Source of the DNA: Pandoraea fibrosis
GTDB taxonomy: Bacteria > Pseudomonadota > Gammaproteobacteria > Burkholderiales > Burkholderiaceae
DNA length: 64,000 nt
Assembly (NCBI RefSeq): GCF_000807775.2
Contig: NZ_CP047385.1
Coordinates: 2,852,001-2,916,000 of the forward strand
Direction of reading: 5' to 3'
A program made the position numbers and the translations under genes. Positions 2,836 through 33,279 of this stretch are shown in pieces (position 1 is the first letter of the stretch; each line of letters begins with the position of its first letter). The notes beneath the pieces were generated by a model. It was not told the origin of the DNA. It worked only from the letters and a program-made list of their open reading frames with translations, and did not search any database.

Positions 2836-2891
2836 ATTTGACGTCTTAATGCGCCGAAGGATGTTTGAAAAACCGAGCCTGATTTTTGATT
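2836..2891 (-). promoter_or_regulatory. Predicted activator-dependent promoter of the outer-membrane barrel gene (heptad repeat type)
   Basis: On the minus strand AATCAAA (2891-2885) and TTTCAAA (2870-2864) are separated by exactly 14 bp. A -10-like TCAAAT (2841-2836) starts 29 bp after the start of the second heptamer. The same geometry recurs at five other places in this window. Transcription would start about 40 bp upstream of the TTG codon at 2792, which supports that start. Confidence 0.55.
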
Positions 2892-2971
2892 TTTTGCTTG
2901 GGTGGCCGAGGGGGTGTTGCGGTCGGTTTTGACGGTGGTGGTTGTGCTCAATGCGCGGGATTTCGCATGTT

Positions 2972-3027
2972 TGGCAAACGCTATCGCCTCATATTCAAAG
3001 ACCTACTTCTAAGCGCTCACCTATCGT
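2972..3027 (+). promoter_or_regulatory. Predicted activator-dependent promoter of the first tpsA (heptad repeat type)
   Basis: TGGCAAA (2972-2978) and ATTCAAA (2993-2999) lie 21 bp apart. CTCAC (3016-3020) and the -10-like TATCGT (3022-3027) follow. The same elements at the same spacing precede the second tpsA gene. No TTGACA-like -35 is present, so an activator bound at about -62 and -41 is inferred. The untranslated leader would be close to 190 nt. The whole 2793-3225 interval is the divergent regulatory region between the barrel gene and tpsA. Confidence 0.6.
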
Positions 3028-3193
3028 GCTGGCATTCGTGGGCAAGTGTGCCACTGGGTAGTTGGTGTGTCCTCGCGTGATGAAACGGCGGCCGAGTCGC
3101 TTTGTGGATTTCGAGCGATGACGTTGAAAGATGGCGTCTGTGCCAATTGCCCGAGAAGGCAATGGGGCGTCGTTCCTCGTCAAACGCACCGCT

Positions 3194-3220
3194 GCCCATA
3201 TATTTTTCGATAGAGTGGGC
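3194..3220 (+). promoter_or_regulatory. Hairpin covering the ribosome-binding region of the first tpsA
   Basis: GCCCAT (3194-3199) can pair with GTGGGC (3215-3220) around a 15-nt loop, six bases before the ATG at 3226. The only plausible Shine-Dalgarno sequence (AGTGGG) is in the 3' arm. The equivalent hairpin at 7689-7715 keeps its pairing with two changed base pairs, so a translational control element is plausible. Confidence 0.45.
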
Positions 3221-3225
3221 AATTC

Positions 3226-6200
3226 ATGAACAAGAACCAATTTCGCAAGGTATTCAGTGAGCGTCTTGGGATGCTGGTAGCCGTAGGTGAGGACGCGAAG
3301 AGCCAAGACAAAGGACTGGGTGCTGGTAACGGAGGCGGTGCTGTCGCCGATGTCCATGTCGTCTCGGACATCAAAGGCGTAGTGCTGGCGATTGTTCTGG
3401 CGCTAGCGGAGACGACGGCATTTGCCCAGTCCTTGCCCACAGGCGGTCAATACACGGCGGGCTCGGGCACGATCAGCACGAACGGCGGCACCATGACCGT
3501 CGATCAGAACACCCAGCGCGGTGTGATCAACTGGAACACGTTCAACGTTGGCTCGGGTAATACGGTTCAGTTCAATCAACCGAACGCTCAGTCCAAGACG
3601 CTGAACATCGTCAGTGGTGGCGTGCCCTCGAATATTCAGGGCAGCCTGCTCGCCAACGGTCAGATCTTCATTCAAAACTCCAGCGGCATTCTCTTTGGTA
3701 AGGGCGCCGTGGTGAACGTCGGTTCGCTGCTGGCGACGACTAAAGCGATCGATCCGAACGCGTTTATGAATGGGGACGTACTGACGTTGTCGTCGACGGG
3801 CAAGAGCGGTTTAGTGCAGAACGACGGCAACATCCAGGCCTCGGGCTTTGTCACGCTGATGGGCGATCAGGTACGCAACACCGGCTCAATCACAGTGCCG
3901 GGCGGTCAAGTGGTGCTCGCGGCGGGCGATAGCGCCACGGTGGCGCTGGCCAACGGCCAGGGCTTGAGCCTGACGCTGACCAACGCGACAGCCAGTGCCT
4001 TGGTGGAGAACAGCGGTCAGATCGTGGCGGATAACGGTTCGGTCCTGCTGACCGCGCGCGGTAGCGACACGTTGCTCAAAACGGTGATCAATATGTCGGG
4101 CGTAGTGCAAGCCGGCTCAGGCGCCATCGTCGCGGATGCCGGCAGCACGGGCGACGTGATCGTCACAGGCAAGCTTGATGCGTCGAACCTGAGCGCAGGT
4201 GGTGTGGGCGGCGACGTGGTTCTCTCAGGCAACCGCATTGGCCTATCGGACACAGCGCGTATCGATGTGAGCGGCGATGGCGACGCAGGCTATGCGGTCA
4301 TCGGTGGCGACACCCTACACAAGATTTCCGGCACCAAGGCAGCGGCATTGATCGACAACGTGACGTTCGCCGACGCGGTGCAGATCGACCGTGGTGCGCA
4401 GATCATGGCGCGTTCGGTGCATGGCAATGGCGGCTTTCTGGAGACATCAGGCCGCTATCTGAACATGCAAGGTCAGGTCGATGCGTCGGCACCGAACGGC
4501 AAGAACGGCTCGTGGCTGATCGATCCGACGGATGTGACGATTAGCACGGATGACGACACAAACTACACCGGCCCGTTGGGCAACGGCACGTTCAATTGGA
4601 ATACCGGGTCCGAGACGGCGGTGGTGAACAACGGCTCGCTGGTCGACGCGCTGAACAGCGGCACGGACGTGACGATCACCACGGCGAGTGATGGCCCTGC
4701 CACGGGCAATATCTCGGTGAAGGCAGACATCGTCACGCATAGCGCCCAGAGCGCAAACCTGACGCTGCTTGCCAACAACAGCCTGTACATCGGCGATCAG
4801 ACGGATGCGCGAATTGCGGCGGACGGCGACGGTGCGCTCAACGTCAATATGGTGGCAATTGACGGCACGGCGTATGTCGGAAGCACCGGCAACACTGTCA
4901 CGTTTGACACGAAGGGCAACGTCAGTATCACGGGGGGGAGTGAGACCTCGGGTGCGGTGGGGCTGCAACTGGCCGGCAACGTGAACGTACTCTCCGGCAA
5001 TGTGGCGCTCACGGGGGCGTCCGACAGCCAAAATGCCGTAGACGCCGTTAAGAACTCCTCGTTGAATGTGACCGGAGGCCGCCTTCGCGTCGACGGAACG
5101 TCTGGGTCCGGAGTGGGCGTCCACCTTACCAGTCTGCTAGTTAGCGGAAGCGGTGCAGTTGAAATTAACGGATCAGGTCAAACGGGGGTTTCGCTATCCA
5201 GCCTGAATGTATCCGATACCGGGGCCGCCAATATTTCCGGCCAAACCAGTCGGTCAGGTGGCTATGGAATCAGCATAACCAATGCGAATGCATCTGGTCA
5301 CGGTGAAATCTATCTTCATGGAACGTCGTCGGCGACGACCGGGGTGGGGTATGGAGTTTATGTCTCTGCTACGAGTGCTGCTCAAGACTCTTTAGTTCGT
5401 ATTGAAGGAGAGAGTAATGGCGGTGATAACGGCGTTGGAATCTACATAAAAAATGCCACTGTTCGGGACAATGGTTCAGCTATTTTCAGTGGAAGTAGCT
5501 CAGGGGCAGGGGATGCGGCTTATGTGTACGCCATGTTGGTTCTCGATCAAGCAAAACTCGATGTCACGGGTACCGCCACCGGTTCGGGCGTGGGCGTCGA
5601 TGCAACAAACATCAACACTTTGGTTAACGGTTCTATCAATATCTCGGGGACTTCGGCTGACGGCGATGGGAGCCGAATCAATGGTGCTGTGGGCGTGGGC
5701 TCCAACTCCGAGGTCAACGTTAGCGGCAATAGCACGAATGGAAACGGCACAGTTTTGGGGGCGGGCGGTTCGGTCACTATTTCTGGTTGCGGTACGTTCG
5801 ACATTTCAGGCGGCTCGGCGAACGGCACTGGGACTCTGATCAACGGCGGCGTGAACGTTTCGAACACCGGTACTGCCAATATCACGGGTAATTCGACCGA
5901 GGGAAACGGCACGGTGATCCACGGTTCGATGAATGTCTCCGGGAGCGGTACGCTCGACATTGGCGGTAGCAGCGCAAACAGCACGGGCACGCTGGTGGAT
6001 CTGAATGGTTCTATCAGGACGGCTGACAACGGCGCTACCACCATCAAGGGAAATAGTACCGATGGTCCCGGCGTGCTCGTCAACGGCACCTTGAATGTCT
6101 CCGGGAGCGGTACGCTCGACATCAGCGGCAACAGCGCGAACAGTACAGGCACGCTGGTGGACCTGAACGGTTCCATGGGGACGACTGACAACGGCGCTAC

Positions 6201-7191
6201 CAGCATCAAGGGAAATAGTACCGATGGCGCCGGCGTGCTCATCAACGGCACGGTGAATGTCTCCGGGAACGGCGCGCTCGACATCAGCGGCAACAGTGCG
6301 AACAGCACCGGAACGTTGGTGGACTCGAACGGTTCCGTCAGCACAATTGACCAAGGATCCTCCAACGTAGCTGGGCGTAGCACGGACGGCACCGGGGTGG
6401 TCGTTAATGGTTCGTTCAATGTGTCAGGCAACGGTTCCGCGAATGTCAGCGGCCACTCAGCCGACGGCAAGAGTCTGGTGGGGGAGTTTACTGCCAGTGA
6501 TGACAGCTCGATATACGTCACCGCGCCAGGTGCGGGTGAGGGCGACATTGTTCTGCACCTGTCCGGTAACGTGAAGTGGGGCCTCGATATTCTTCCCGAG
6601 AACACTACGCCGATAGACCCGACCGATCCCGTCAATCCGACAAATCCAACGGACCCGACCAACAACACGCCGGAAAATCCGACCAGCGGGGATTCCGGCG
6701 GTGGGCACAGCAACACCGGTGCGATCGTGGGTGGCGTGCTTGGTGCCGCCGGTATTGGCGGGGCGCTGGTCATGAGCGCCCATGGGGTGATGTACCTGGA
6801 GCAGCCGGCAGAGTTGATTGTCGACATCGGCGACTTGTCTTATTGGGGCAGAGTGTCGCTCGAACATCTACAGATCGATTTGAAGGGCGGTCAGGCGGAA
6901 CTTGCGCTCCGCAGTCCGACTGGGCCACTCAAACGTCAACTCAAACTTTTAGATGGTGGCGATGGTGTGAAGCACTACGCCTCGGTCGATGCGAAGACCG
7001 GCGTTAAGTCGGATCTGACGTTTGATCCGAAGACGAGCGAATACTTCTACACGGAGACGGGAATGAAGGCGGGGCAGCCGTACAAGGTCTCGGCCCACGG
7101 CTGGCTCAAAGCGCATACCTCGATTGGCGCGCCTGCACCATTGCCGGAGTCGGCAAGCTGGGCTATACGGCCAAGCGCAAATGCAAAGTGA
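3226..7191 (+). CDS. TpsA exoprotein 1: HMW/FHA-type two-partner-secretion adhesin
   Basis: A secreted adhesin of 1321 residues. It opens with an extended signal peptide (MNKNQFRKVFSERLGMLVAV, then a hydrophobic stretch ending ETTAFA-QSLP near residue 68). A haemagglutinin-activity TPS domain follows (VINWNTFNVGSGNTVQFNQP, NGQIFIQNSSGILFGKGAVV). After about residue 600 the protein becomes a repeat region built from units of roughly 20-25 residues such as NVSGSGTLDISGNSANSTG, probably a beta-helix. It is extremely rich in N-X-S/T sequons, the target of HMW1C-type glycosyltransferases, and such an enzyme is encoded downstream at 16191. The C-terminus has a P-T-D-P linker, a Gly-rich hydrophobic segment and a conserved domain of about 130 residues (from YLEQPAELIVDIGD) shared only with the neighbouring exoprotein. 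There is no C-terminal cysteine pair as used for anchoring HMW1. Secretion through the TpsB at 14358 is inferred. Confidence 0.93.
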   Translation: MNKNQFRKVFSERLGMLVAVGEDAKSQDKGLGAGNGGGAVADVHVVSDIKGVVLAIVLALAETTAFAQSLPTGGQYTAGSGTISTNGGTMTVDQNTQRGVINWNTFNVGSGNTVQFNQPNAQSKTLNIVSGGVPSNIQGSLLANGQIFIQNSSGILFGKGAVVNVGSLLATTKAIDPNAFMNGDVLTLSSTGKSGLVQNDGNIQASGFVTLMGDQVRNTGSITVPGGQVVLAAGDSATVALANGQGLSLTLTNATASALVENSGQIVADNGSVLLTARGSDTLLKTVINMSGVVQAGSGAIVADAGSTGDVIVTGKLDASNLSAGGVGGDVVLSGNRIGLSDTARIDVSGDGDAGYAVIGGDTLHKISGTKAAALIDNVTFADAVQIDRGAQIMARSVHGNGGFLETSGRYLNMQGQVDASAPNGKNGSWLIDPTDVTISTDDDTNYTGPLGNGTFNWNTGSETAVVNNGSLVDALNSGTDVTITTASDGPATGNISVKADIVTHSAQSANLTLLANNSLYIGDQTDARIAADGDGALNVNMVAIDGTAYVGSTGNTVTFDTKGNVSITGGSETSGAVGLQLAGNVNVLSGNVALTGASDSQNAVDAVKNSSLNVTGGRLRVDGTSGSGVGVHLTSLLVSGSGAVEINGSGQTGVSLSSLNVSDTGAANISGQTSRSGGYGISITNANASGHGEIYLHGTSSATTGVGYGVYVSATSAAQDSLVRIEGESNGGDNGVGIYIKNATVRDNGSAIFSGSSSGAGDAAYVYAMLVLDQAKLDVTGTATGSGVGVDATNINTLVNGSINISGTSADGDGSRINGAVGVGSNSEVNVSGNSTNGNGTVLGAGGSVTISGCGTFDISGGSANGTGTLINGGVNVSNTGTANITGNSTEGNGTVIHGSMNVSGSGTLDIGGSSANSTGTLVDLNGSIRTADNGATTIKGNSTDGPGVLVNGTLNVSGSGTLDISGNSANSTGTLVDLNGSMGTTDNGATSIKGNSTDGAGVLINGTVNVSGNGALDISGNSANSTGTLVDSNGSVSTIDQGSSNVAGRSTDGTGVVVNGSFNVSGNGSANVSGHSADGKSLVGEFTASDDSSIYVTAPGAGEGDIVLHLSGNVKWGLDILPENTTPIDPTDPVNPTNPTDPTNNTPENPTSGDSGGGHSNTGAIVGGVLGAAGIGGALVMSAHGVMYLEQPAELIVDIGDLSYWGRVSLEHLQIDLKGGQAELALRSPTGPLKRQLKLLDGGDGVKHYASVDAKTGVKSDLTFDPKTSEYFYTETGMKAGQPYKVSAHGWLKAHTSIGAPAPLPESASWAIRPSANAK

Positions 7192-7469: not shown

Positions 7470-7525
7470 ATTCAAACGAGAGCGTTCGTTATTCAAAGAT
7501 TCGTTTCCAGGCGCTCACCTATCGT
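7470..7525 (+). promoter_or_regulatory. Predicted activator-dependent promoter of the second tpsA (heptad repeat type)
   Basis: Two perfect ATTCAAA heptamers (7470-7476 and 7491-7497) are separated by 14 bp. CTCAC (7514-7518) and TATCGT (7520-7525) follow at the same distances as upstream of the first tpsA. The stretch from the second heptamer through about 7550 is nearly identical to 2993-3050, so the promoter was duplicated with the gene. The leader is about 190 nt. Confidence 0.62.
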
Positions 7526-7688
7526 GCTGGCATTCGTGGGCAAGTGTGCCTTGGGGCACCGAATTTGTCCGCGCGCAAGACGAGAGTGCGCTTGGGTCGG
7601 TAGTTCGATCTTGAGCGACAACGTCGAGGGGGGCGTCGATTTGCCTGAAAAGGCAGAGCGGCGTGATCGTTCCTCGTTGCGCGCCGCT

Positions 7689-7715: not shown

Positions 7716-7720
7716 AATTC

Positions 7721-10700
7721 ATGAATAAGAACCGATTCCGTAAGGTGTTTAGTGAGCGTCTGGGCATGCTGGTAGCCGTAGGTGAGGACGCTAAGGGCCA
7801 AGGGAAGGGACTGGGTACTGGCACCGGAGGTGGTGCTGTCGTTGATTTACATGTCGTCTCAGGGATCAAGAGCGTGGTGCTGGCGATTGTGCTTGCGTTG
7901 GCGGAGACGACAGCGTTCGCGCAGTCGCTGCCCACAGGCGGTCAATACACCGCAGGCTCGGGCACGATCAGCACGAATGGCGGCACCATGACCGTCGATC
8001 AGAACACCCAGCGCGGGGTGATTAACTGGAACACGTTTAACGTGGGTGCGGGTAATACGGTTCAGTTCAATCAACCGAACGCTCAGTCGAAGACGCTCAA
8101 TATCGTCAGCGGTGGCATGCCGTCCAATATTCAGGGCAGTCTGCTCGCCAACGGTCAGATCTTCATCCAGAACTCCAGCGGCATTCTCTTTGGTAAGGGC
8201 GCGGTGGTTAACGTCGGTTCGCTGTTGGCGACGACCAAGGCGATCGATCCGAATGCGTTCATGAATGGGGACGTGCTGACCCTATCGTCGACGGGCCAGA
8301 ACGGAAAAGTACAGAATGACGGCACGATCAATGCGTCGGGTTTTGTGACGCTGATGGGCGATCAGGTGCGTAATACCGGCTCGATCACGGTGCCGGGCGG
8401 GCAGGTGGTGCTCGCCGCGGGCGATAGCGCCACAGTGGCGCTGGCCAACAGCCAGGGCCTGAGCCTGACGCTGACCAACGCGACAGCCAGTGCCTTGGTG
8501 GAGAACAGCGGTCAGATCGTGGCGGATAACGGTTCGGTCCTGCTGACCGCGCGCGGTAGCGACACGTTGCTCAAGACGGTGATCAATATGTCGGGCGTGG
8601 TGCAAGCCGGCTCAGGAGCGATTGTGGCTGACGCAGGCAGCACAGGCGACGTGATCGTCACGGGCAAGCTCGATGCGTCGAACATGAGCGCGGGTGGTGT
8701 GGGCGGCGACGTGGTGCTCTCAGGCAACCGCATCGGCCTATCGGACACAGCGCGCATCGATGTGAGCGGCGATGGCGACGCAGGCTATGCGGTCATTGGC
8801 GGTGACACGCTGCACAAGGTGCCGGGCACCAAGGCAGCAGGATTGATCGGCAACGTGACGTTCGCCGACGCAGTACAGATCGACCGTGGCGCCCAGATCA
8901 TGGCGCGTTCGGTGCATGGCAACGGCGGCTTTCTGGAGACGTCGGGCCGTTACCTGAACATGCAAGGGCAGGTCGATGCGTCGGCACCGAACGGCAAGAA
9001 TGGCTCGTGGCTGATCGATCCGACGGATGTGACGATTAGCACGGATGACGACACAAACTACACCGGCCCGTTGGGCAACGGCACGTTCAATTGGAATACC
9101 GGGTCCGAGACGGCGGTGGTGAACAACGGCTCGCTGGTCGACGCGCTGAACAGCGGCACGGACGTGACGATCACCACGGCGAGTGATGGCCCTGCCACGG
9201 GCAATATCTCGGTGAAAGCAGACATCGTCACGCATAGCGCCCAGAGCGCAAACCTGACGCTGCTTGCCAACAACAGTCTGTACATCGGGGATCAGACGGA
9301 TGTGCGAATTGCGGCGGACGGCGACGGTGCGCTCAACGTCAATATGGTGGCAACTGATGGCACGGCGTATGTCGGAAGCACCGGGCATAACGTGACCTTT
9401 GACACGAAGGGCAACGTCAGTATCACGGGGGGGAGTGAGACCTCTGGGGCGGTAGGGTTGCAACTGGCCGGCAACGTGAACGTTGTCTCCGGCAACGTGG
9501 CGCTTACGGGATCATCCAATAGCAACGTTGGCGTCAAAGGGCTTGAGAACTCCGCGATAAATGTGTCCGACGGTCATCTCGATATCAATGGTTCGTCGGG
9601 TTTGTCGACTGGCGTCGATATTTCAAACTTGACGATTGACGGAACCGCCACGGCTGGACTGACAGGCGCGGGAAGAACGGGCGTAGCCGCAGACAATATC
9701 GTTGTGTCGAATAGCGGCGCGCTTGACATTTCCGGTATCGGAACCCCGCCAAATGAGGGCTACCACGGAACGGGTGTCAAAGTCACGAACCTCACGATCG
9801 GAGGGAGTGGCTCTGTCAATATCACTGGTGAAGGCCGAGTCCTTACTAAAGACCTGGATAGCCACGGTGTCATTGCGGACAATATCAGTGTTTCCGAGCA
9901 CGGATCGCTAAATATCGCCGGCGAGTCTCTTGGGAGAAATGATTCTTCCGCGGTGAACATCGCAAACCTCAGTGTTTTCGGCGACGGCAGGGTCAACGTG
10001 ACGGGGAATAGTACCTATAACGGTTCATTTTCCCCCTTCGGCGTTATGGCGAATAACATTAGTGTGTCGGAAAATGGCTCGCTCAATGTCACCGGTGTCG
10101 CGCAAACAGGGCAAGCAGTTCACGTCACCAATGTCTCAGTCTCAGGCCACGGATCGCTCGATCTTGTTGGCACCTCGAACTTCAGTAATACCAATCAAAA
10201 CGACGCGGCAGTCTTCGTCAACAATCTGAGCGTTGCTGACGAGGCTTCCGCCAATCTCACGGGGTCGGGTTTTATCGGAATTAATGTGAGTGTCGTTCGC
10301 GTCTCCGACCATGCCTCGGTCAATTTCACTGGCAATGGGGGTAAGTTCACTGGCGTCAGCATAGGAGGGCTTACCGTTTCTGGCGGGACCGTAGATTTCA
10401 ACGGGACTGGCCGCGGCACGGGCTCGGGCGTTGTTGCCACTAATGTCAATGCGTCCAACGGCGCGTTAATTTCTTTCAACGGAACGACCTCCGGAACGGG
10501 TAACGCCGTTTGTATAACCACTGCTATCGTCTCCAGTGATGCCTCAATTGACGCCATCGGAACAGCGACTGGATCAGGCGCAGGAATCAATGTAACCAAT
10601 GTGAGGGCCTCTACCGGCAGTTCACTCAATTTCACAGGGACTGCCGCTTCGGGGGGCGGCATTGTCGCAACGACCGTAAACGTTTCCGGTGGTTCGGCTA

Positions 10701-13700
10701 ATTTCAGCGGGACCAGTGGGGGAGCGGGTGCAGGTATTTCCGCCAGCCACATCGTTGCTTCCGGCGGTTCAATCGATCTCACTGGAAATGGCACTGGATC
10801 CGGGGCAGGCGTCAGCGCCACCGACGTCACCGTTTCCGGCAATGGATCCATGCATTTCAATGGCGCCAGTGCGGCGAGCACGGGTGTTGACGCCAATCAG
10901 GTCATCGCTTCCAGTAACGGCGCAATCGATCTCATTGGACATGGCGCGACAGCGGGCGTCTCGGTCACTGACGGGAATGTCTCCGGTGGTTCAGTAAAAC
11001 TGAACGGCACATCAGAAGCCGCGACAGGTGTCAATATTGCCAATCTCACGGTAAGTGGCGACGCTAAGGTAGAGGGTGTTGGTACCGGCGCGACGGGGGT
11101 GATTGCCGACCAGATCAATGTCCTGGACAACGGGGTGCTTGATATTGCGGGCAATGGCACCGGAGCGGGAGCGGGCGTCCTCGCCGCTAATGTCACCGCT
11201 TCCGGCAGCGGAGCCATTCATCTCAATGGCACAAGCGCGGCGAGTGCGGGTGTTGACGTCAATCACGTCGAGGCTGCCGGAAGCAGCGTCATCGATCTCG
11301 TTGGGAATGGCGCCACAGCGGGAATCTCGGCAACGGACGTGAATGCGACCGGTGGCTCGGTGGCGATGAACGGCACATCGGACACTGCAACGGGCGTCAA
11401 TATTGCCGATCTGACAATCAGTGGCGACGCTAAAGTGGGGGTGGTGGGCACTGGCACGACGGGAGTGATTGCGGATCGCATCGATGTTGCAGACAACGGT
11501 GAGCTAGGAATTTCCGGCAATGGAATCTCGACGGATACGGCGCACGGTGTGATGCTGGCGAATCTTACGATTGAAGGCAGCGGCTCCGCCAATATCACTG
11601 GAATCTCGAACGGTAGCGACAAGGACAATATGTCTTTCGGCGTTGACGCAAATAACATTAGTGTCTCCGGTCTGGGGTCCCTCAATGTTGTTGGCAATAC
11701 CGCAGGGCGAGAGAGATCTGCAGGGGTTAACGTAACCAACCTCGATGTCTCGGGCGACGCTTCAGTCGACGTGACCGGTTATTCGTCCTATGGTGGGTCG
11801 TATTCCGCCTATGGCATCAGAGCGACCGACGTCAACGTTTCCGGAGGCGGTACGTTCAATGCCACCGGTACCGCCGTGGCAGGAGAGGGCGTTGGGGCGA
11901 CGAATGTCCATGTGTTCGAAAGCGGCTCAATCGATATTGTGGGTAGCGTTGCTTCCGCTAATCCCAATCAGACAGCCGCCGCCGTTGCGTTAAGCGGCTT
12001 TGAAGTCTCGGGAAGCGGCTCTGCGAATGTCACGGGGGCAGGGTTTGTCGGCATCAAGGCAAACAAGATCACCGTTTCCGACGATGGGAAAATCAATCTC
12101 TACGGTACCGCCACGAATACTTCGGGCATCGGCGTTGTTGCTACGAACGTCACTGCATCCGGCGGCTTGATCGATGTGGACGGTGCGAGCGCTGGCTCAG
12201 GCGCAGGCGTGAGCGCATCCAACGTTACCGCGGCTGGCGGCGTCATTCATCTCGCCGGCGTCAGCACTGGATCGGGGGCCGGCGTTAGCGCAACCAATGT
12301 CAGCGCGTCCGCAGGCGAGATCGATATCCTGGGAACCAACACCGGATCGGCGGCTGGCGTCAGCGCCACCAACGTCGCCGCTTCTGGCACGGGCTCTATC
12401 ATTGTCAATGGCACAAGCACTACGACTGCTGGCATCGAGGCGCAGCATGTCGTTGCTTCCGAGAGCGGTTCCATTGATCTGACGGGAAGTGGCGTCACGT
12501 CGGGTATTGCTGCATCGGAGATCGATGTTTCCGGCGGCGTGGTGAAGATGAACGGCACGTCACAGACCGGAGACGGCGTCGTTCTGTTGGCCAGTGTGAA
12601 GGTATCCGGAGATGGGGCGCTGACGATCGCTGGCAACAGCGTCTCGGGAAGCGGCGTTTCTCTGCCGGCGGATGTCGATATCTCAGGCGGTCGCATGACG
12701 CTGATCGGATCATCCGAGTCTGGCGTTGGCCTTTCCGAGGCAGGCGGCTCAGTCAACGTTTCGGGAAATGGCGTAGCGGACCTCTCGGGTACGTCGAACG
12801 ATAGCAGCGGTGTACAAATCGGGTCGGACGTCAATGTCTCAGGTGCCGGCGCTCTGAGCGTTTCCGGAATTTCGACCAATGGCACCGGCACGTTGCTCGA
12901 TGGCGATATCAACGTGAACGACAGTGCAACGGTAGACGTCTCGGGCACCTCGACGAGTGGGGTCGGCACTCAAGCTGATGGAGCGATCCATGTTTCGGGC
13001 GATGGCCGGACAACCTTCAGAGGCACATCGACGAACGGCGTTGGCACCCAAGTCGGAGGGGCGATCGATGTCTCCGGCAACGGCCGCGTCAACGTCTCAG
13101 GTACCTCTGCGAGCGACGCAGGCGTACTTCTCGATCCGACCGGCTCGGTGACGGCATCGGGTGAAGGCTCCGCGACAATCTCGGGCAATTCGATGGATGG
13201 CGTTGGCGCGCAAATCAACGGAACCGTGAACGCTCGCGAGAACGGTTCGATCATTATCCTGGGACGCTCGGAGAACAGCACTGGCGCACTGATTGACGTC
13301 AACGGCTTGGCGAGTGCGTCGGACAACGGATCGATCGATATCTCTGGTGCGTCGACGAACGGTAGTGGCGCTCAAGTCGATGGCCTGGTCGACATTAAGG
13401 ACTATGCGTCGGGTAACGTGTCGGGCATGTCGACGAACGCGCAAGGGATGGCCGTCGGAGCGGACGGTGTCATCAAGACATCCGATAACGGGTCGAGCCA
13501 CATTACCGGAAGCAGTCTGAATGGTAGCGGCGTGAGCATCGATGGCTTGGTCGATGTGTCGGGAAGTGGTTTGGGGAATATCAGCGGCAACTCGACCAAC
13601 GGCGTAAGTATGGTTCTGGGGAACCATGCCCTGATCGCCGCGAGCGACAACAGTGTGCTGAACGTGAGCGCACCGGGCAACGCGAACGGCTCCATCGCCG

Positions 13701-16163: not shown

Positions 16164-16190
16164 ACCCGGTCCAATTTTCGAGAGAATCCA

Positions 16191-21299: not shown

Positions 21300-21355
21300 A
21301 TTCAATATCGTTCTTGTATTTGTCAAAGATGATGGCGAGGGACATTCAATAGGCT
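21300..21355 (+). promoter_or_regulatory. Predicted promoter of the EAL/RcsB-like operon (degenerate heptad repeat type)
   Basis: ATTCAAT (21300-21306) and TGTCAAA (21321-21327) are 14 bp apart, and TAGGCT (21350-21355) starts 29 bp after the start of the second heptamer. The match is weaker than at the adhesin promoters but the geometry is exact. If real, the RcsB-like regulator two genes down could control its own operon. Confidence 0.42.
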
Positions 21356-23991: not shown

Positions 23992-24846
23992 ATGCAACTG
24001 CAATCACAATCCGATCGTTATGTATTGGTGGACGGTGGAATCAGTCACATGACGGGCATCAGAGAAAGCGTCTATTCAAGCGGTATCGGTCTTCGCGTGG
24101 TGCGAAGCCTTATCGAGGCTTTGGGGGGCTGCACAGACGGCGAATTGCCCGATCTGGTACTGGTCGGCGTTCGCGATTCGAACGTCGACGCGATTTCCCG
24201 CTGTCATGACGTCTTGCGGCAACACGACACATCGATCATTGCGTTCGGCCCCGTCCAGGAGCCTGCGCTGCGGGTGCGATGTTTCAGGGCCGGCGCCGTC
24301 GACTACATCGATTCGGGCGCATCTGCCAAGGAGCTGGATTTACGCATCGGCATGCATCTCAAGCATCGACCGACATTTGCCGCAGTTCCGTCGTCAGGGG
24401 AGGGGCAGGAGATTACGGGATCGCGCAAACACGAAATCTATCATCTCGCTGTGAAGTACCTTGCCCAAACCGAGATCGGCAACATCTCTCAGCAATCTCT
24501 GGCTTCACGCATTGGCGTTTCGGTGGGACATCTAGACGCCGCCTTCCGGACTGTTCTGGGCTATAGCATCGTGCGATTTCTCAAGCGACGCCGCATGGAA
24601 ATTGCGACGGTGCTGCTCAAGGGAAGCAACATGAGCGTGACCGCGATCGCCGAACTTCTGGGGTTTTGCGATGGCGCCAACTTTGCGACGGCATTCCGGC
24701 AGGAGATTGGGAAAACCCCTTCCGAATACCGGTTTGGATTGCGTGACGACTGCGAAGACGGATGTGCCGTAACGGTGACTGATCTGGTGGCCGCCGCCGG
24801 CGCGTCTCGATGGCGGTGCAGCGACTATGCGGGAGCGACGCCATGA
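23992..24846 (+). CDS. AraC-family regulator with receiver-like N-terminal domain
   Basis: A 284-residue protein. Residues about 1-125 look like a response-regulator receiver fold (DLVLVGVRDSN, SIIAFGPV, FRAGAVDYIDSGASAKELDLR) but lack the acidic pair, the aspartate at the usual place and the KP lysine, so it is a pseudo-receiver. The C-terminal part is an AraC double helix-turn-helix (ISQQSLASRIGVSVGHLDAAF, SVTAIAELLGFCDGANFATAF, GKTPSEYR). The ATG at 23992 has GGGGGA in front; an in-frame GTG at 23962 is less likely. It shares a 4-bp ATGA overlap with the next AraC gene, so the two are translationally coupled. Confidence 0.85.
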   Translation: MQLQSQSDRYVLVDGGISHMTGIRESVYSSGIGLRVVRSLIEALGGCTDGELPDLVLVGVRDSNVDAISRCHDVLRQHDTSIIAFGPVQEPALRVRCFRAGAVDYIDSGASAKELDLRIGMHLKHRPTFAAVPSSGEGQEITGSRKHEIYHLAVKYLAQTEIGNISQQSLASRIGVSVGHLDAAFRTVLGYSIVRFLKRRRMEIATVLLKGSNMSVTAIAELLGFCDGANFATAFRQEIGKTPSEYRFGLRDDCEDGCAVTVTDLVAAAGASRWRCSDYAGATP

Positions 24847-25691
24847 TGAACCCGCAGCGCCCCATCCCCTCGCGTGGGGATGGGAGTCGAGCTGGCACCA
24901 ATGCCACGGTGCGCTCCACGATCTGGATACTGAACGAGCGCCCCGAGGCGTTCGCTGATGTGGTTGGCGAACTTCGCGCGCAACTCTTCGACGTGCGGGT
25001 GGTGAGCGATGGGTGGACGAGCTATTACGAAGCCCTCGTGTCTGCGCCGACCGCTTTCGTCGTCGATGGCGCGCTCACCGGAATGGATGCCAGAGCGTTC
25101 TGCTGCCTGGTGAGCGGCGCCCCCCGCCTTCGTGGCGTTCCCGTCATTTACATCGATGTCGAGGGGGCCAGTGAGGCTCGTAGCCGTGCGTTGGCGTCCG
25201 GGGCATCTGACTGCATCGTGTTCCCCTTCATGCCGGAGGAGTTGATTGCGCGCCTGCGGCTCCAAATTCGCATCGCGCGTAGTGCGAGCGATCCGGTAGA
25301 GCTTCAACGCGCTGACCGCGCATCTCGGAGCACGCGCACCGCGATGACGTTGATCAACGGTGGCCGGATCGCCGACATGAGTGCGAAGACGTTGGCTAAC
25401 GCCGTAGGAGCGAGTGATCGTCGCTTGTCTCGGGACTTTAAGGAAAAGCTCGGGGTGTCCGTATCCGAGTACCTGCGGCGAGAAAAGCTGGGGCGCGCAG
25501 CATGGTTGCTGCAACACTCAGGCATTTCGATCACGGATGTGGCGCATGAAGTCGGTTTCCGGAGTCCGTGTAATTTCAGCGTCGCATTCAAGAAACACAC
25601 TGGACTGACGCCTTCCCAATTCCGCGCCAATGGACAGTCGTCAATGGTGGACCGCGAGGGAGAGGACAATTCGGTTACCTCAGCGCGTTGA
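24843..25691 (+). CDS. AraC-family regulator with receiver-like N-terminal domain (second of a pair)
   Basis: A 282-residue protein with the same plan as its upstream neighbour. A receiver-like N-terminal domain (TAFVVDGALTGMD, GVPVIYIDVEG, GASDCIVFPFMPEELIARLR) is followed by an AraC DNA-binding domain (SAKTLANAVGASDRRLSRDF, SITDVAHEVGFRSPCNFSVAF, GLTPSQFR). It keeps an aspartate at the phosphorylation position (VVDG) but has F in place of the KP lysine. The two genes look like an old tandem duplication. The ATG at 24843 overlaps the preceding stop; an upstream in-frame start at 24810 would overlap more. The target genes are unknown. Confidence 0.85.
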   Translation: MMNPQRPIPSRGDGSRAGTNATVRSTIWILNERPEAFADVVGELRAQLFDVRVVSDGWTSYYEALVSAPTAFVVDGALTGMDARAFCCLVSGAPRLRGVPVIYIDVEGASEARSRALASGASDCIVFPFMPEELIARLRLQIRIARSASDPVELQRADRASRSTRTAMTLINGGRIADMSAKTLANAVGASDRRLSRDFKEKLGVSVSEYLRREKLGRAAWLLQHSGISITDVAHEVGFRSPCNFSVAFKKHTGLTPSQFRANGQSSMVDREGEDNSVTSAR

Positions 25692-26019: not shown

Positions 26020-27183
26020 ATGCCCACCAACTCCGGAGCGGACGCTTACGGCCTGCAGTCGACTAACGGCGTCACATTTTCGACTGCCTACCTCCTTCCC
26101 GAGGTGCGCAACGACGCTTGCCGAAAGATCATCAGCCCGTTCTTCGATGCGCGTCATATCAAGAGTGAAAAGGGCGGGAATCTCGAAGGTGCATTGACGT
26201 CAACGCATATCGGCAGGCTTTTGGTCGGCGAGACGGCTTTCAATTCACAGCGACATGAGCGAAGCCGGAAGTTGGCGTTGAGCACCAGTCTCGATCAATA
26301 CCTGATTCAGTTATTCGTTTCGGGCACGCTGGATGGCGATTGCGATGGCCGACCCGTTGTGGTGCGTCCCGGGGACATCATCGCGATGGATCTTTCGCGC
26401 GTTGCCAACACACAGATTAGTCCTGGCGCTACGGTGAGCTTGATCGTCCCACGTGAAGCCATCGACAAATCCACGGGCGGGCGGAGCATCCACGGCACCG
26501 TACTCAAGGCGGAGCATGCCGTCACTCGGCTGCTCGCCGGCTTTCTCGTTAGCTTGGCGGACGTGGCAGGCGAGATCGAGGGCGAGGAGGCGCTCGGTGT
26601 CGAGAGCGGCGCTGTCAATCTGCTCGCCGAGATCCTCGCCAAGAAATCCGATGCGGCGCTATTCAACGAAGACTCGGTGCTCTCGCGCGTCTTGCGCAGT
26701 CAGGTTCTCTCCTATATCAACGCCAATCTCACGTCCCCCTCCTTGGGGCTGGATGCCATCATCGCGCGATTCCGCGTCTCACGTGCGCATCTCTATCGTA
26801 TTTTCGAGGCCGACGGTGGTATCGCAACGGTGATTCGCAACAAGCGACTGGACGCGGCTTATCGCGCACTGACGCAGGGGGGCGGGCGAGGGGCCTCGTC
26901 CATTACACGTCTCGCGCACGAGCTGGCTTTTTCCGGGAGCAACCATTTTCTGCGGGCCTTTCGGGCGCGGTTTGGCGTAACGCCGAGCGAGGCGCGTGAA
27001 CTGGCCTTTTCGTTCGAGCTTGCCGATCAGGGCGTGGCTAGCCTCTATTCGCATCTGTTGAATTACGCAAATCCGGCCACGGAGCATTTGGTCGAACCGG
27101 TCTCGGTACCGTTGAAAAAACTAGCGCCATTTTCCGACGACCTTCTGAAGGCTGCCAGCGCCGGCGTCAGACCACCCAAATGA
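26020..27183 (+). CDS. AraC-family regulator with cupin-like sensor domain
   Basis: A 387-residue regulator of the type with an AraC-binding-like N-terminal domain (about residues 40-180; note LFVSGTLDGDCDGRPVVVRPGDIIAMDLSR) and a C-terminal AraC helix-turn-helix (SLGLDAIIARFRVSRAHLYRIF, ITRLAHELAFSGSNHFLRAF, GVTPSEARELA). It differs from the two receiver-like AraC proteins upstream. It is convergent with the ClpV-like gene, with only 11 bp between the stops. GGAAATTTAGGC precedes the ATG. The inducer and targets cannot be told. Confidence 0.85.
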   Translation: MPTNSGADAYGLQSTNGVTFSTAYLLPEVRNDACRKIISPFFDARHIKSEKGGNLEGALTSTHIGRLLVGETAFNSQRHERSRKLALSTSLDQYLIQLFVSGTLDGDCDGRPVVVRPGDIIAMDLSRVANTQISPGATVSLIVPREAIDKSTGGRSIHGTVLKAEHAVTRLLAGFLVSLADVAGEIEGEEALGVESGAVNLLAEILAKKSDAALFNEDSVLSRVLRSQVLSYINANLTSPSLGLDAIIARFRVSRAHLYRIFEADGGIATVIRNKRLDAAYRALTQGGGRGASSITRLAHELAFSGSNHFLRAFRARFGVTPSEARELAFSFELADQGVASLYSHLLNYANPATEHLVEPVSVPLKKLAPFSDDLLKAASAGVRPPK

Positions 27184-27194
27184 AACGGTGACGG

Positions 27195-29858
27195 CTATTG
27201 GCGCGGGATGTCGGCCGCGACATGGATAGCCAACTGTCCGTCTTGCGACATCGTCAGCGAGAGGCATTGCGGTGCGTCGCCCGAGACCCGGCTCGCCAGG
27301 ATTTCCCGCGAGATTCTGGGCAGGATTTGCTGGTTGAGATAGGCGTCCACGCCGTGTGCACCGGCATTCAGTGTGAGGCACCGTCGTACCAGCATCGTCA
27401 CCAGCGAGTCGTCTGCGAGAAGCGTGATCCCACGCTTGCGCTTCAGGCGCTGCGCGACTTTGGCGAGCTTCATCTGCACCACGTCCCCGAGCGCCGGCGT
27501 ATCCAGGGGGCGGTACACCAGGGTCTGAACGCGAGCCAGCAACGCGCTGGGGAAGCGTGACGTCATCGCCGGTCGAATCGCGTCGAGCAGTGTGTCTTGG
27601 CCCGCATCCGCGTGGGTCGCGGCCATAGACTCGATCGTGTTGGCCCCGATACTCGACGTCATCAGAAAGACGCAGTTGCGGAAATCGATGGCCCGCCCGT
27701 CGTCATCGCGCGTCACGCGGCCATCGAAGATTCGGCAGAGCAGGTCAAGGACATCCCGAGGCGCATACTCAAGCTCGTCGAGCAGAACCACGCTGTACGG
27801 CCGTTGACGCACGGCCTCGGTCAACACGCCTTCCAGCCCGTGGCCGACGGCTTCCGGCAACGTTCCGGTTAGCCGGAACACGCTGTGCGATTCCCGGTGT
27901 TCGGAAAAGTTGAGCGGGATAAGCGCTGCCTCACTGCCGAACAAGATGTCGGCCAACGCTAATGCCGTTTCTGTTTTCCCGACGCCCGAGGGGCCGGTTA
28001 GCAGAAACGCCCCCGCCGGAGCATGCTCCGGCGTGAGTCCGGCATTGGCGGTGCGCAGGTGCTCGACGAGTCCCTGCACGGCGTCTTGTTGACCGGCCAC
28101 ACGCGATCTCAAAGGCGCATCCAGCGAGAGGAGGTCGCGCGGCTCGTCGACCATCAGATTGCCGACTGGAATCCCTGTCCACTCGGACACGATCTGCGCA
28201 ACAACCCGTGCATCGACGTCAGCGGACACCAGCGGCGGCGCGTCCTGCGCTTGAGCCAGCGCTTCGCAGGCGAGTGCCAACGCGTAGGCATCGCGCGCCT
28301 CAGGCGCCGCGTCGCGCTGTGCTCTTATGGCATCGACAAGTTCGCGCTCGCTCGCGCAGCGCACGCGAACGTCGTCGACTTCCGCTCTGGCTGCATGAAG
28401 GGAGACCTCGAGATCCTTCAATCGTTGGGATGCGCTGGTGCCGCCTTCCGCGACATCGAATTCGAGCGTCGCCTGTTCAATTTCAAGCGCGCTGAGTGTT
28501 GCCGAGGCTTGTTGAAGCGCCGCAGGTTCGACGTCCAATGACATCCTTACGCGACCGGCGGCGGCATCGAGCAAGTCGAAGGCCTTCTCCGGTAGCTTGC
28601 GCGTCGGTATGTAACGACGCGCGAGTTTAACGGCGGCCACCAGCGCTTCGTCGCGAACGTGCACCCGATGGAAAGTCGCGTAGTGCCACTTGAGTCCGCG
28701 CAGCATCAGGCAGGCGGCATCGTCGTCCGGCTCGTCGACCTCGATCATCTGGCAACGGCGCGCCAGTGTGGCGTCGTGCTCGAAGATCGTCTTGTATTCG
28801 GCCCACGTCGTCGTTGTGATCGTTCTGACGTCGCCGCAGGCAAGTGTGCGCTTGAACAGATTGGCAATGTCGGTGCCGTGTATCGTGCGATGGGGGTTGA
28901 AGAGCGTTTGGACTTCGTCAATAAACAGAAGTACCGGCTCGGCGGATGCCTGCACGGCATCAATGACGGCACTCAGCTGCTGTTGGAATTCTGCCCCGTT
29001 TTCGGCGTTGGTCCTCAGTGACTCGAGGTTGAGCGCCAGGATACGAAGATCGCGAATCACATCGGGGACATCGCCATTGGCCACGCGCAGCGCCAGACCA
29101 TCGATCAGGGCGGTTTTTCCCACGCCGGGGTCGCCAACCAGAATCGGGCTGTTCTTTCGACTCTTGGCAAGGACTTCCACCACTCGCTGGATCTCCCGAT
29201 CGCGCCCGAAAACATCATCGAGTTCTCCGCTGCGTGCGCACTCCGTCAGATCGGTTGTGTAGCGTGCCAACGGTGCAACGGTACCCCCGCCGCTGGATGC
29301 CGATGCGCCGCACGAGGCTCCCGTGCCGGCCATGCTCGACTCGAACGAGGTTTGCAACATCGACTCGACGAGCGCGGAAGGGGCACTGAGGGGTTGCGGC
29401 GTTTCGCATGTTTGTGCGCCAAGTTCGGGGAGAAGCTTGCCGACCTGAGTGCTGCTGAAATTCAACAACGGCCAGAGAGACGGGGCGCGTAACACATGCG
29501 GGGAATCGACGATGACCTGAAGCAAGTTAGCCGAACGGATCGGCCAGTGGCGATGGTCGGCGCAGGCGTGCAGCAGGCTCACCAACTGCGAGGACAGTAT
29601 CGGTTCCTTGCGCAGATTGCGCGGCAGGCGGTCGATGGTGGACATCAAGACGTCCCAGAGGACATCCACGTCGATGCCGTAGTGATTCATGATGGCGGGG
29701 ATGTCGCCATCGCCGGCTTCGAGAAGCGTCAGCAACCAGTGTTCGACGGTGATCTCGTCGGAAAGTCGTAGCTTGCAGAGACTCGCGGCGGCCTCCAGCG
29801 CCATCGCGCAGTGGGTATTGAGGCGTTGCAGGACAGGGGTGGTATCGCGAGTTGTCAT
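27195..29858 (-). CDS. clpV: ClpV/ClpB-like AAA+ ATPase, isolated from other T6SS genes
   Basis: An 887-residue double-ring AAA+ protein. A Clp-N domain (residues about 1-160) is followed by AAA1 with GDPGVGKTA near residue 243 and LLFIDEVQTLF, a middle coiled region, and AAA2 with GPSGVGKTE near residue 623, VVLLDELEYAP and the C-terminal small domain. The N-terminus (QRLNTHCAMALEAAASLC) matches ClpV of type VI secretion, which recycles the contracted sheath, better than general ClpB. I chose the ATG at 29858 because it aligns with the ClpV start; an ATG at 29906 is possible. No sheath, tube, membrane-complex or effector gene lies within the window, so it is either an orphan or an ancient relocation. 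The symbol should be read as family level. Confidence 0.82.
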   Translation of the reverse strand: MTTRDTTPVLQRLNTHCAMALEAAASLCKLRLSDEITVEHWLLTLLEAGDGDIPAIMNHYGIDVDVLWDVLMSTIDRLPRNLRKEPILSSQLVSLLHACADHRHWPIRSANLLQVIVDSPHVLRAPSLWPLLNFSSTQVGKLLPELGAQTCETPQPLSAPSALVESMLQTSFESSMAGTGASCGASASSGGGTVAPLARYTTDLTECARSGELDDVFGRDREIQRVVEVLAKSRKNSPILVGDPGVGKTALIDGLALRVANGDVPDVIRDLRILALNLESLRTNAENGAEFQQQLSAVIDAVQASAEPVLLFIDEVQTLFNPHRTIHGTDIANLFKRTLACGDVRTITTTTWAEYKTIFEHDATLARRCQMIEVDEPDDDAACLMLRGLKWHYATFHRVHVRDEALVAAVKLARRYIPTRKLPEKAFDLLDAAAGRVRMSLDVEPAALQQASATLSALEIEQATLEFDVAEGGTSASQRLKDLEVSLHAARAEVDDVRVRCASERELVDAIRAQRDAAPEARDAYALALACEALAQAQDAPPLVSADVDARVVAQIVSEWTGIPVGNLMVDEPRDLLSLDAPLRSRVAGQQDAVQGLVEHLRTANAGLTPEHAPAGAFLLTGPSGVGKTETALALADILFGSEAALIPLNFSEHRESHSVFRLTGTLPEAVGHGLEGVLTEAVRQRPYSVVLLDELEYAPRDVLDLLCRIFDGRVTRDDDGRAIDFRNCVFLMTSSIGANTIESMAATHADAGQDTLLDAIRPAMTSRFPSALLARVQTLVYRPLDTPALGDVVQMKLAKVAQRLKRKRGITLLADDSLVTMLVRRCLTLNAGAHGVDAYLNQQILPRISREILASRVSGDAPQCLSLTMSQDGQLAIHVAADIPRQ

Positions 29859-30177
29859 GTCAGGTAGGCAAGAAATCCGGGGAAAGGCGTGAGGCTCTGC
29901 AAGCATCCGGTGCTTGCGCGGGAGATGCGTTGGCAGTTTTCGCTAAACCGTATTACCCAGACTTGCCACCGCATTGAGTGGGCGCTTTCGGCTCGAGATG
30001 GGGCCGACGCCATGATTCACCTTAGCAATGCTCGCCACGCCTTGCCTTTGAACTTTTGCAAAGGCCGTTTGATCGCGATCCTGACGTACTTGCAGATTCC
30101 CGGCCGCCTTGCACAGCGCCGTCTCCGACATTGGCGCAGGGGCCGGATGCGGCTCCCCGCGCATTCCCATCACGGTG
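29859..30177. other. Intergenic region upstream of the ClpV-like gene
   Basis: No gene is supported. The only notable element is a perfect inverted repeat, GCAAGCA (29899-29905) and TGCTTGC (29911-29917) with a 5-nt loop, about 40 bp before the chosen ClpV start. It could be an operator or an RNA hairpin in the leader. I see no convincing promoter hexamers and no terminator for the SYLF gene. Confidence 0.4.
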
Positions 30178-30765: not shown

Positions 30766-31389
30766 CGCTCTTCCTTATGGGTGGTAATTCGCAGTCAATT
30801 ATCGGTACGGCTTATTCTGTCACGCAGCCCTTTTGGCACAAGATCCCACCGTCTCATTTTCCTCTCCAATTTGTCTCGCTCCGCCGTTTGTGGCTTGTCA
30901 TCGCGAGCGATTTGAAACATTCTGATTCGACGCGTCTGCTTCGCGCGGTGACACTCCGAGCGCCGCAACCGCATGAACGTGCATGCTCGCCTGCGACTTC
31001 ACTCGTGGGCGATTTTTGTTGTCCGAATGCAAAAGCCTATGGGGGCCGGACGATTGGGCTCTGGTTGCGATTCAAAGAAAAACGACGGTTATTCAAATGC
31101 TGGCATTCCGAATTTCTACTATTTTTCTCGCACGAACAGGCAGATGTCTTCGTTGGCGGCAATCGATGTGCACGAGTGCGTCGCGACAGGGCAATCGCAT
31201 CCGATGCATCCGATATTGAGGTGAGGCTGCGCCAAATGCGTTTGCATCGACTCGTCGGCCGCATCTCTCGCTTCCCGGTAATCGTGGCCGGAAGCCTTAG
31301 CGCTTGACACCGGCCCCCAACCATTTCCATTGATATTTCGACCAACGCCAGGCGCATGCCCGGCCTTGACGCATGAGGACTTTCTCGTG
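30766..31389. other. Long divergent intergenic region
   Basis: I find no supportable gene in these 624 bp between the SYLF lipoprotein and the SphA-like gene. The heptad-repeat promoter at 31070-31125 points toward the SphA-like gene and would give a leader of about 260 nt. Short open frames occur on both strands but lack ribosome-binding sites and recognisable protein features. Confidence 0.45.
31070..31125 (+). promoter_or_regulatory. Predicted activator-dependent promoter of the SphA-like gene (heptad repeat type)
   Basis: Two perfect ATTCAAA heptamers (31070-31076 and 31091-31097) are separated by 14 bp, with TATTTT (31120-31125) at the same distance as the -10 elements of the other five copies. 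The sequence between and around the boxes is unrelated to the tpsA promoters, so similarity here is confined to the boxes and the -10. Confidence 0.6.
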
Positions 31390-32385: not shown

Positions 32386-32400
32386 CAACAGGAAATCTTA

Positions 32401-32850
32401 ATGAAACTTGTGATATTGGCGTTGGGGCTGACGCTTGCCGTACCCGCATTCGCTCAGAAGCCAAGTGTCTATCCGGCGCATGGCCAAAGTATGGAGCGTC
32501 AGATGAATGACGACGGGGCATGTTACGGATGGGCACGGCAAAACACCGGCATCGATCCGACCATGTTGGCGATGCAGACGGTGCCTCCGCCGGTGCCGGT
32601 GGGTGGGCGCGCCGTAGGCGCCGCCCGCGGGGCAGCGGCAGGCGCTGTTGTCGGTGAGCTTGGGCACAACAACGTGGGGCATGCTGCGGCAGTCGGGGCA
32701 ACGGTAGGTGCCGTTGCGGGCGGTGCGCGACAGCGGGGTCGCTACGTCGCCGAGGCCGAGATGGCACAAGGCGCGAAGATGTCGCAGATCGATACCTATT
32801 GGCGCGCGTATGGCGCCTGCATGGAAGGGCGCGGGTACACGGTCAGATGA
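32401..32850 (+). CDS. Exported glycine-zipper protein
   Basis: A 149-residue protein. Signal peptide MKLVILALGLTLAVPAFA-QKP, then a short domain with a cysteine (DDGACYGWARQNTG), a glycine zipper (GAARGAAAGAVVGE...GHAAAVGATVGAVAGGA) and a C-terminal segment with a second cysteine (YWRAYGACMEGRGYTV). Proteins of this plan (YMGG/OmpA glycine-zipper types) sit in the envelope, and their role is poorly known. GGAAATCTT precedes the ATG and the gene is 15 bp from the SphA-like gene. A strong terminator follows at 33082. Confidence 0.82.
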   Translation: MKLVILALGLTLAVPAFAQKPSVYPAHGQSMERQMNDDGACYGWARQNTGIDPTMLAMQTVPPPVPVGGRAVGAARGAAAGAVVGELGHNNVGHAAAVGATVGAVAGGARQRGRYVAEAEMAQGAKMSQIDTYWRAYGACMEGRGYTVR

Positions 32851-33081
32851 CGCCGTGATCGCTTGGGGGCTTTGGATTTTCGATAGTCGCGATTGAATAT
32901 CCGCTCGGTCCGCACCAGGGTGCCTGAGTGTGCTTGCATGGACGATATGCCGGCGATTACTCTGTTTTTGGATCATCTGCGCGACCCCTTCCTCAAGGGG
33001 GAAGCCCCCGGCAGGTGATCTACCCCGACGATGCACACCATGCATCCTCCATATCCTGTCCCCGCAGTGGCATGGAGCCTG

Positions 33082-33110
33082 AACCGCCTCTTTCAGAGGC
33101 GGTTTTTTTT
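33082..33110 (+). terminator. Strong rho-independent terminator
   Basis: AACCGCCTCT (33082-33091) pairs perfectly with AGAGGCGGTT (33095-33104) over a 3-nt loop and is followed by a run of T to 33110. It ends the SphA-like/glycine-zipper operon. The full gap 32851-33501 otherwise contains the promoter of the adhesin secretion operon and its leader of about 215 nt; no gene is supported there. Confidence 0.9.
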
Positions 33111-33223
33111 CGGCTCGTCGCGATCGGAGCCGTACATCTTTGGTTGCCGACGGAGGTCAGCTTCCCATCGTCCCGGCAGATGCCTCGCGTCGACAACGAC
33201 GTGCATCTGCGTCCCGTTCTGCG

Positions 33224-33279
33224 TTTCAAAGGGAAATTGCCGCTATTCAAATGCGTATTTTCTCACCCTCACTTAACGT
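33224..33279 (+). promoter_or_regulatory. Predicted activator-dependent promoter of the Sii-like adhesin operon (heptad repeat type)
   Basis: TTTCAAA (33224-33230) and ATTCAAA (33245-33251) are 14 bp apart. CTCAC (33268-33272) and the -10-like TAACGT (33274-33279) follow at exactly the spacing seen at the tpsA promoters. The first gene of the operon starts at 33502. Confidence 0.6.

Follow-up and report, generated by a model that had tools for sequence, protein, structure and literature searches.

Which protein reads the paired TTCAAA boxes that lie ahead of surface and secretion genes in Pandoraea, an opportunistic lung pathogen? The question arises from a 64,000-nucleotide stretch of the Pandoraea fibrosis genome, hereafter the window (positions 2852001-2916000 of a single 5,592,065-bp contig), where a first-pass annotation had joined six transcription units into one adhesion regulon. 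The most probable answer, with a probability of about 0.6, is that one or both of two adjacent receiver-AraC (REC-AraC) proteins, A (23992-24846, plus strand) and B (24843-25691, plus strand), act as an autoregulated class II activator that binds the boxes as tandem half-sites and drives a regulon of adhesion and secretion genes.

Paired boxes and a fixed −10 hexamer

The six heptamer pairs described previously were all present in the sequence, each with an N14 spacer and therefore a 21-bp period, with a T....T hexamer 29 bp past the start of the second heptamer and with the CAAA core in 11 of the 12 heptamers. Site 1 (2836-2891, minus strand) consists of AATCAAA (2891-2885), TTTCAAA (2870-2864) and the −10-like TCAAAT (2841-2836), and it lies ahead of gene 1824-c.2790. 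Site 2 (2972-3027, plus strand) combines TGGCAAA (2972-2978) and ATTCAAA (2993-2999) with TATCGT (3022-3027), and its putative target is tpsA1 (3226-7191, plus strand; ESPR and two-partner secretion (TPS) domains by Pfam). Two copies of ATTCAAA with TATCGT at 7520-7525 make up site 3 (7470-7525, plus strand), ahead of the cluster of tpsA2, tpsB (ShlB), an HMW1C-like glycosyltransferase and a methyl/glycosyltransferase (7721-19839, plus strand; Pfam). Site 4 (21300-21355, plus strand), with ATTCAAT, TGTCAAA and TAGGCT (21350-21355), precedes an EAL-RcsB-AraC-AraC cluster that may form a single transcript. Site 5 (31070-31125, plus strand; ATTCAAA twice, TATTTT at 31120-31125) stands ahead of gene c.31390-32385, and site 6 (33224-33279, plus strand; TTTCAAA, ATTCAAA and TAACGT at 33274-33279) ahead of a type I secretion system (T1SS) cluster.

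The set of six was correct but too small. A seventh window site (30019-30074, minus strand), GATCAAA-N14-GTTCAAA-N22-TAAGGT, has its heptamers at 30074-30068 and 30053-30047 and its hexamer at 30024-30019, and precedes a ClpV-like ATPase gene. In addition, an unlinked site at genome position 1038362, 1.8 Mb away, lies ahead of a secreted pectinacetylesterase-like gene (L004, PF03283). The term "adhesion regulon" is incomplete, since sites are also found ahead of the ClpV-like and pectinacetylesterase-like genes. All seven window sites are direct repeats with a 21-bp period. As had been claimed, no TTGACA-like −35 element was found: in all eight promoters of this genome, the best hexamer at spacers of 15-19 bp has 3-5 mismatches (shuffled mean 3.1). 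The proximal repeat abuts or overlaps the −35 position, which would fit an AraC/XylS class II promoter if the hexamer is the −10 element.

The genome was scanned with the full promoter pattern, TTCAAA-N15-TTCAAA-N22-TANNNT, allowing mismatches, with the reversed pattern as a control and with chance expectations from a dinucleotide model of the window. The pattern occurred at 4, 1, 4 and 21 places with 0, 1, 2 and 3 mismatches, respectively, against expectations of 0.001, 0.08, 2.0 and 30.5. Low-mismatch sites are therefore far beyond chance, whereas the three-mismatch count is background, and the total of 30 places compares with 24 for the reversed control. Of the four zero-mismatch places, three are in the window and one is ahead of the pectinacetylesterase-like gene. 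The nine places with up to two mismatches are seven in the window, the pectinacetylesterase-like one and a look-alike beside a DeoR-type gene. The exact heptamer pair WTTCAAA-N14-WTTCAAA was found three times in the 5.59-Mb genome, always inside the window, and its reversed control was not found.

The coupling between boxes and hexamer was also evident. Without the −10 element, the box pair occurred at 6 places with no mismatch (0.34 expected). Among its 13 matches with up to one mismatch, TANNNT stood at exactly +22 in five, while the other 31 offsets together gave four (Poisson 3e-7); TANNNT at +22 marks the real sites among pair matches.

The comparison sample comprised 32 Pandoraea genomes, and in these relatives the boxes and the −10 hexamer are retained while the spacers drift. 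Sites 5 and 7 are kept in G017, G002, G006 and G018, and site 6 in G017; copies of site 1 with three mismatches are found in G002 and G006, where only gene fragments matched. In G006, a divergent tpsA/1824 promoter pair persists (C13:131961-132154), with no tpsA match in the 77 kb fetched. A family-weighted logo of 32 sites in 9 families showed TCAAA at −60 to −56, TTCAAA at −40 to −35 and T−12, A−11 and T−7, with a weak C at −46 and a weak TT at −43/−42.

Some sites were left out of this logo. By our own judgement, these were the G002/G006 site at 29621/29811, which adjoins a periplasmic-binding-type protein (by eye) and is probably a different motif, together with a similar one in G009 (C2). 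Also excluded were G009 15524 (three mismatches, ahead of an autotransporter-like open reading frame (ORF)), the box pair without −10 beside the homolog of gene 26020 (see below) in G010/G014, and G017 C146:67508. The G010/G014 site at C11:115953 / C20:31775 (0-1 mismatch), which lacks a convincing target gene nearby, was excluded from the logo but included in the seven-of-eight comparison given below.

A further conserved element, GC-N7-GGGCARRTGTST, follows the −10 hexamer at 3028-3052, 7526-7550 and 31126-31150 (plus strand) and in G017, G006 and G002 copies, and spans about +1 to +17. It is present in the tpsA promoters, in the one labelled 31330 and in the pectinacetylesterase promoter of G002 (not of G000), and weakly in that of TolC; it was not found in the EAL, ClpV, 1824 or winged helix-turn-helix (wHTH) promoters. 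Its short core, GGCARRTGT, has two further occurrences in the window.

Co-occurrence with regulator genes

REC-AraC A orthologs were found in 8 of the 32 genomes (G000, G002, G006, G009, G010, G014, G017 and G018); a ninth, G019, matches at 2e-26 only. REC-AraC B orthologs were found in the same eight, at E 7e-112 or better. At 1e-25, 23 of the 32 contain some match to B, most of these (1e-35 to 1e-39) belonging to another REC-AraC group. At E 0.001, B matched 43 proteins, with a close group (at least 43%) of nine, the named ones from Pandoraea.

A site with up to two mismatches precedes the REC-AraC-pair cluster in all eight genomes. In G018 the cluster is reduced to A and B alone, with the site directly ahead of A, and the fetched 100 kb yielded no EAL gene. 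In G009 and G014 the gene order is EAL, RcsB-like, hybrid kinase, A and B (kinase by eye), and the gene spacing in G010 is the same. The G009 (L108-L109) and G014 (L104) kinases between RcsB-like and A are hybrid histidine kinases with PAS domains, and autotransporter-like adhesins lie nearby (by eye). A tblastn search with both kinases found no kinase relic in the window, the only part of the P. fibrosis genome searched.

Genus-wide counts at up to one mismatch were taken after 8 look-alike hits had been removed by eye. At least one remaining site was found in 7 of the 8 pair-bearing genomes and in 4 of the 24 pair-less ones (Fisher 7e-4). The hits numbered 21 in the former and 5 in the latter, and the reversed controls 3 in all 32 genomes. 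The only hit of G009 at this level is a look-alike, and its EAL site has two mismatches. With the looser WTCAAA-N15-WTCAAA-N22-TANNNT, the matches listed included zero-mismatch ones in G000 (5), G002 (3), G006 (2) and G010, G014 and G018 (1 each), and none in the eight pair-less genomes whose matches were all listed.

The ClpV-like ATPase gave a comparable result. At E 1e-150, 12 copies, including that of P. fibrosis, were found in 11 of the 32 genomes. The five copies beside the REC-AraC pair all carry the site, and none of the seven located elsewhere has one at up to three mismatches in the 20 kb fetched around each.

Candidate binders and target genes

Under the proposed mechanism, the heptamer pairs would be tandem half-sites of an AraC-family activator, occupied from about −62 to −35. 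The activator would overlap the missing −35 element and bring RNA polymerase to a −10 of sigma-70 type (TANNNT), whose distance is fixed. It would most likely be REC-AraC A, B or both, the AraC protein of gene 26020 being a less likely choice. Since site 4 lies ahead of the REC-AraC genes' own cluster, the circuit would be autoregulated. Its targets would be tpsA1, tpsA2-tpsB-glycosyltransferase, the T1SS cluster, the two outer-membrane-type genes, the ClpV-like ATPase and the unlinked pectinacetylesterase-like gene. The shared promoter plan of the first-pass annotation, with direct repeats over −35 and a fixed −10 ahead of tpsA, T1SS, EAL-cluster and outer-membrane genes, is supported at the sequence level, but its RcsB-like binder is not.

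The predicted models of both proteins contain a receiver-like N-terminal domain and an AraC-type helical C-terminal domain. Mean predicted local distance difference test (pLDDT) was 76.9 for B, with a predicted template-modelling score (pTM) of 0.50 from 9 sequences, and 71.3 for A (pTM 0.46, 5 sequences), whose secondary structure supports a receiver fold plus an AraC helix-turn-helix (HTH). In these models the domain order is clear, whereas the domain arrangement is not. In a Foldseek search made for B, the halves matched receiver 3t6k (TMt 0.89) and the AraC domains 3oio (0.84) and YesN 3lsg (0.87). The phosphorylation residues (DD, D, T, K) are not intact by eye: the Lys is replaced in both proteins and the phospho-Asp is lost in A. 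As defined in the excerpted text of PMC12632262, both are therefore pseudo-receivers.

Several observations weigh against this assignment. Regarding the sites, the box pair without −10 at up to one mismatch (13 places) is not above the modelled 12.2, although the reversed control gave 3, so that the pair alone is convincing only at zero mismatches. Core columns were invariant in 97 of 104 cases versus 150 of 288 for the inner spacer (eight alignments of 2-4 sequences, with EAL entered twice, near and far, and tpsA with paralogs and a G006 relic), but there is some circularity here, as the motif itself had served to find most of the sites. Within each half-site, strong conservation is confined to a single heptamer and any further conservation is weak, while AraC half-sites usually contain two boxes one turn apart, as in XylS (PMC5481539, excerpt). 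The −10 departs from TANNNT in site 1 (TCAAAT) and in the pre-wHTH site of relatives (TATAAA), and the second heptamer is degraded in the pre-EAL sites of G009 and G010/G014. Some promoters share more than their boxes (identity outside the boxes of 0.50 for tpsA2/31330 and 0.48 for tpsA2/pectinacetylesterase-like), so they may not all be independent. Regarding the genomes, four pair-less ones hold the 5 non-lookalike hits, two of these in the 1.2-Mb G003. With WTCAAA boxes and up to two mismatches, all 32 genomes were hit (103 times in the 8, 12.9 each; 216 in the 24, 9.0 each); this level is thus mostly background and hardly separates the groups. The eight genomes represent about five lineages, because three pairs (G000 and G017, G002 and G006, G010 and G014) are closely related, and the whole locus may move as a unit. 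Finally, the product of gene 26020 occurs in the same eight genomes, and co-occurrence cannot separate it from the pair.

That product, an AraC_binding_2 plus HTH_18 protein (FeaR/TagK-like; 26020-27183, plus strand), could itself bind the boxes, with the REC-AraC pair as co-regulated accessory proteins, a possible but doubtful alternative. Its family fits the site geometry. At E 1e-60 it was found in 10 of the 32 genomes, but orthologs (53-100%) were confined to exactly the eight pair genomes, the other 24 having none at that level (matches up to 38%). As the G010/G014 orthologs lie on another contig, their retention may not be mere linkage. However, no site within four mismatches is found upstream of this gene in the window, and a site lies ahead of the REC-AraC-pair cluster in eight of eight genomes.

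Binding of the heptamers by a dimer of the RcsB/BvgA-like regulator (23059-23700, plus strand), as originally modelled, is quite improbable. In favour of this model, the gene belongs to one of the target clusters, a hybrid kinase (by eye) comes next in G009 and G014, much as in a BvgAS-like pair, with matching gene spacing in G010, and the heptamer's ATTC portion is similar to the BvgA half-site. Nevertheless, orthologs (at least 55%) were found in 5 of the 32 genomes only, with matches of up to 39% in 26 others and no match in one. They were missing from G002, G006 and G018 (up to 39% only), where the sites are conserved. The likeness to BvgA/RcsB heptads also failed in orientation, since the repeats are direct and no inverted partner heptad stands at a fixed place: the best match averaged 1.6 mismatches versus 1.9 for shuffled sequences, and in four of eight cases was the listed heptamer itself.

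That the sites are repressor operators, or copies of a promoter cassette that has spread and is read by no shared activator, is highly improbable. A look-alike, TTCAAATGA-N12-TTCAAATGAACATT, does recur in many Pandoraea genomes, and the P. fibrosis copy is beside a DeoR-type gene (by eye). This hit, at 4449324 (L012), was rejected as a target because it is an operator-like look-alike that recurs in the genus. Over the 25 bases past the −10, the promoters of tpsA1 and tpsA2 do not differ, so they are probably one duplicated promoter rather than two independent cases; identity outside the boxes is 0.41-0.50 in a few other pairs. On the other hand, mean identity outside the boxes is 0.31 over the 28 pairs of the eight promoters, so that most sites are unlike copies of one cassette, and the fixed TANNNT at +22 with no −35 fits activation.

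The OmpR-type winged-helix protein (20443-21264, plus strand; degenerate receiver) is a very improbable binder: direct repeats are also used by its family, whose geometry fits, and a three-mismatch site precedes its own gene in G002, G006 and G018, but it was found in 5 of the 32 genomes, with no match at E 1e-30 in G009, G010 and G014, which retain the pre-EAL site, and OmpR/PhoB spacing is 10-11 bp, not 21. Neither this protein nor the RcsB-like one was accepted as sole binder, as orthologs could not be found in every genome that carries sites.

The genome series also admits a more speculative and rather improbable reading, namely that the regulon outlived its phosphorelay. A BvgAS-like module of EAL, RcsB-like, hybrid kinase and two REC-AraC genes, which G009 and G014 contain and whose spacing G010 shares, would have lost first the kinase (no kinase in the cluster in the window and G017), then the RcsB-like gene (G002, G006) and then EAL (G018), while the promoter code stayed fixed. 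The AraC paralogs might then act as a pseudo-receiver heterodimer, one per half-site, with phosphorylation replaced by another signal.

Regarding the target genes, gene 1824-c.2790 appears by eye to encode an outer-membrane protein, probably from a TTG start downstream of site 1, and had no Pfam or NCBIfam match. Gene c.31390-32385 belongs to the Phenol_MetA_deg family and also looks like an outer-membrane protein by eye. The first gene of the EAL cluster (21428-23011, plus strand) encodes a CSS-EAL phosphodiesterase-type protein (Pfam). The T1SS cluster (33286-46532, plus strand) comprises TolC, genes 35075 and 37175, HlyD, a 2072-aa ORF and a type I ABC exporter. The 2072-aa ORF (38594-44812) has internal repeats; "adhesin" was its label in the first-pass annotation, given to an ORF that was not family-scanned. 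Membrane proteins 35075-35851 and 37175-38545 matched PRK09039-type peptidoglycan-binding proteins and ZorA weakly, under the cut-off, and are an unusual pair for type I secretion. The ClpV/TssH-like AAA ATPase (27195-29906, minus strand) scored 801 bits against TIGR03345, below the 885 cut-off, and TssB (PF05591), the only other type VI secretion system (T6SS) gene searched for, was not found in this genome (1 of 14 control genomes matched). Its identity as a T6SS ClpV was consequently rejected, and it probably does not belong to a functional T6SS.

Comparison with known systems

The regulon is new, while its kind of promoter is already known. In the literature on Pandoraea with AraC, promoter motifs, filamentous hemagglutinin or two-partner secretion, the motif was absent from the titles and abstract beginnings of the matches listed; a search combining TTCAAA, AraC, direct repeat and Burkholderia gave no match, and neither did PIP box terms. 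As a promoter code for Pandoraea surface adhesins and secretion, the pattern is open to testing, and by itself it led to an unlinked candidate member. It makes AraC-type proteins, rather than the RcsB-like one, the first to examine, and the genomes form a natural series: regulon sites persist whether the two-component module is present or absent.

BvgA controls TPS adhesins and an EAL gene, and the present heptamers start with ATTC, as BvgA/RcsB heptads do. According to the excerpts of PMC7250471, however, BvgA binding is head-to-head, strong sites carry inverted heptads and the dimers lie 22 bp apart, whereas the repeats here are direct.

Identity with the PIP or hrpII box was rejected, as the cores are TTCAAA with a 21-bp period and not TTCG with 20 bp. 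The distance to the −10 is also longer at PIP/hrpII boxes than in the present sites. In the text seen of PMC6913199, the PIP box is TTCGB-N15-TTCGB and the hrpII box TTCG-N16-TTCG. These HrpX/HrpB boxes resemble the present ones in being tandem, starting with TTC, belonging to AraC-type regulators and marking a secretion/virulence regulon (PMC6913199, PMC7831014; excerpts).

The YesN-type REC-AraC response regulators share with A and B a receiver fold and a two-HTH AraC domain, but the receivers here lack the Lys and other active-site residues by eye and would be pseudo-receivers in the terms of PMC12632262, as excerpted.

By analogy, the arrangement corresponds to that of AraC/XylS class II promoters: direct repeats with a 21-bp period of which the proximal one covers −35, a −10 at constant distance and no consensus −35. 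In the XylS family the repeat period is 21 bp, and at Pm the repeats overlap the RNA polymerase site. The XylS box (TGCA-N6-GGTA) and its induction by benzoates are different; the N-terminal domains here are degenerate receivers. Common to both, judging from the excerpts of PMC5481539, where a XylS dimer occupies two direct repeats of 15 bp, would be two direct repeats that place two AraC-type monomers next to RNA polymerase.

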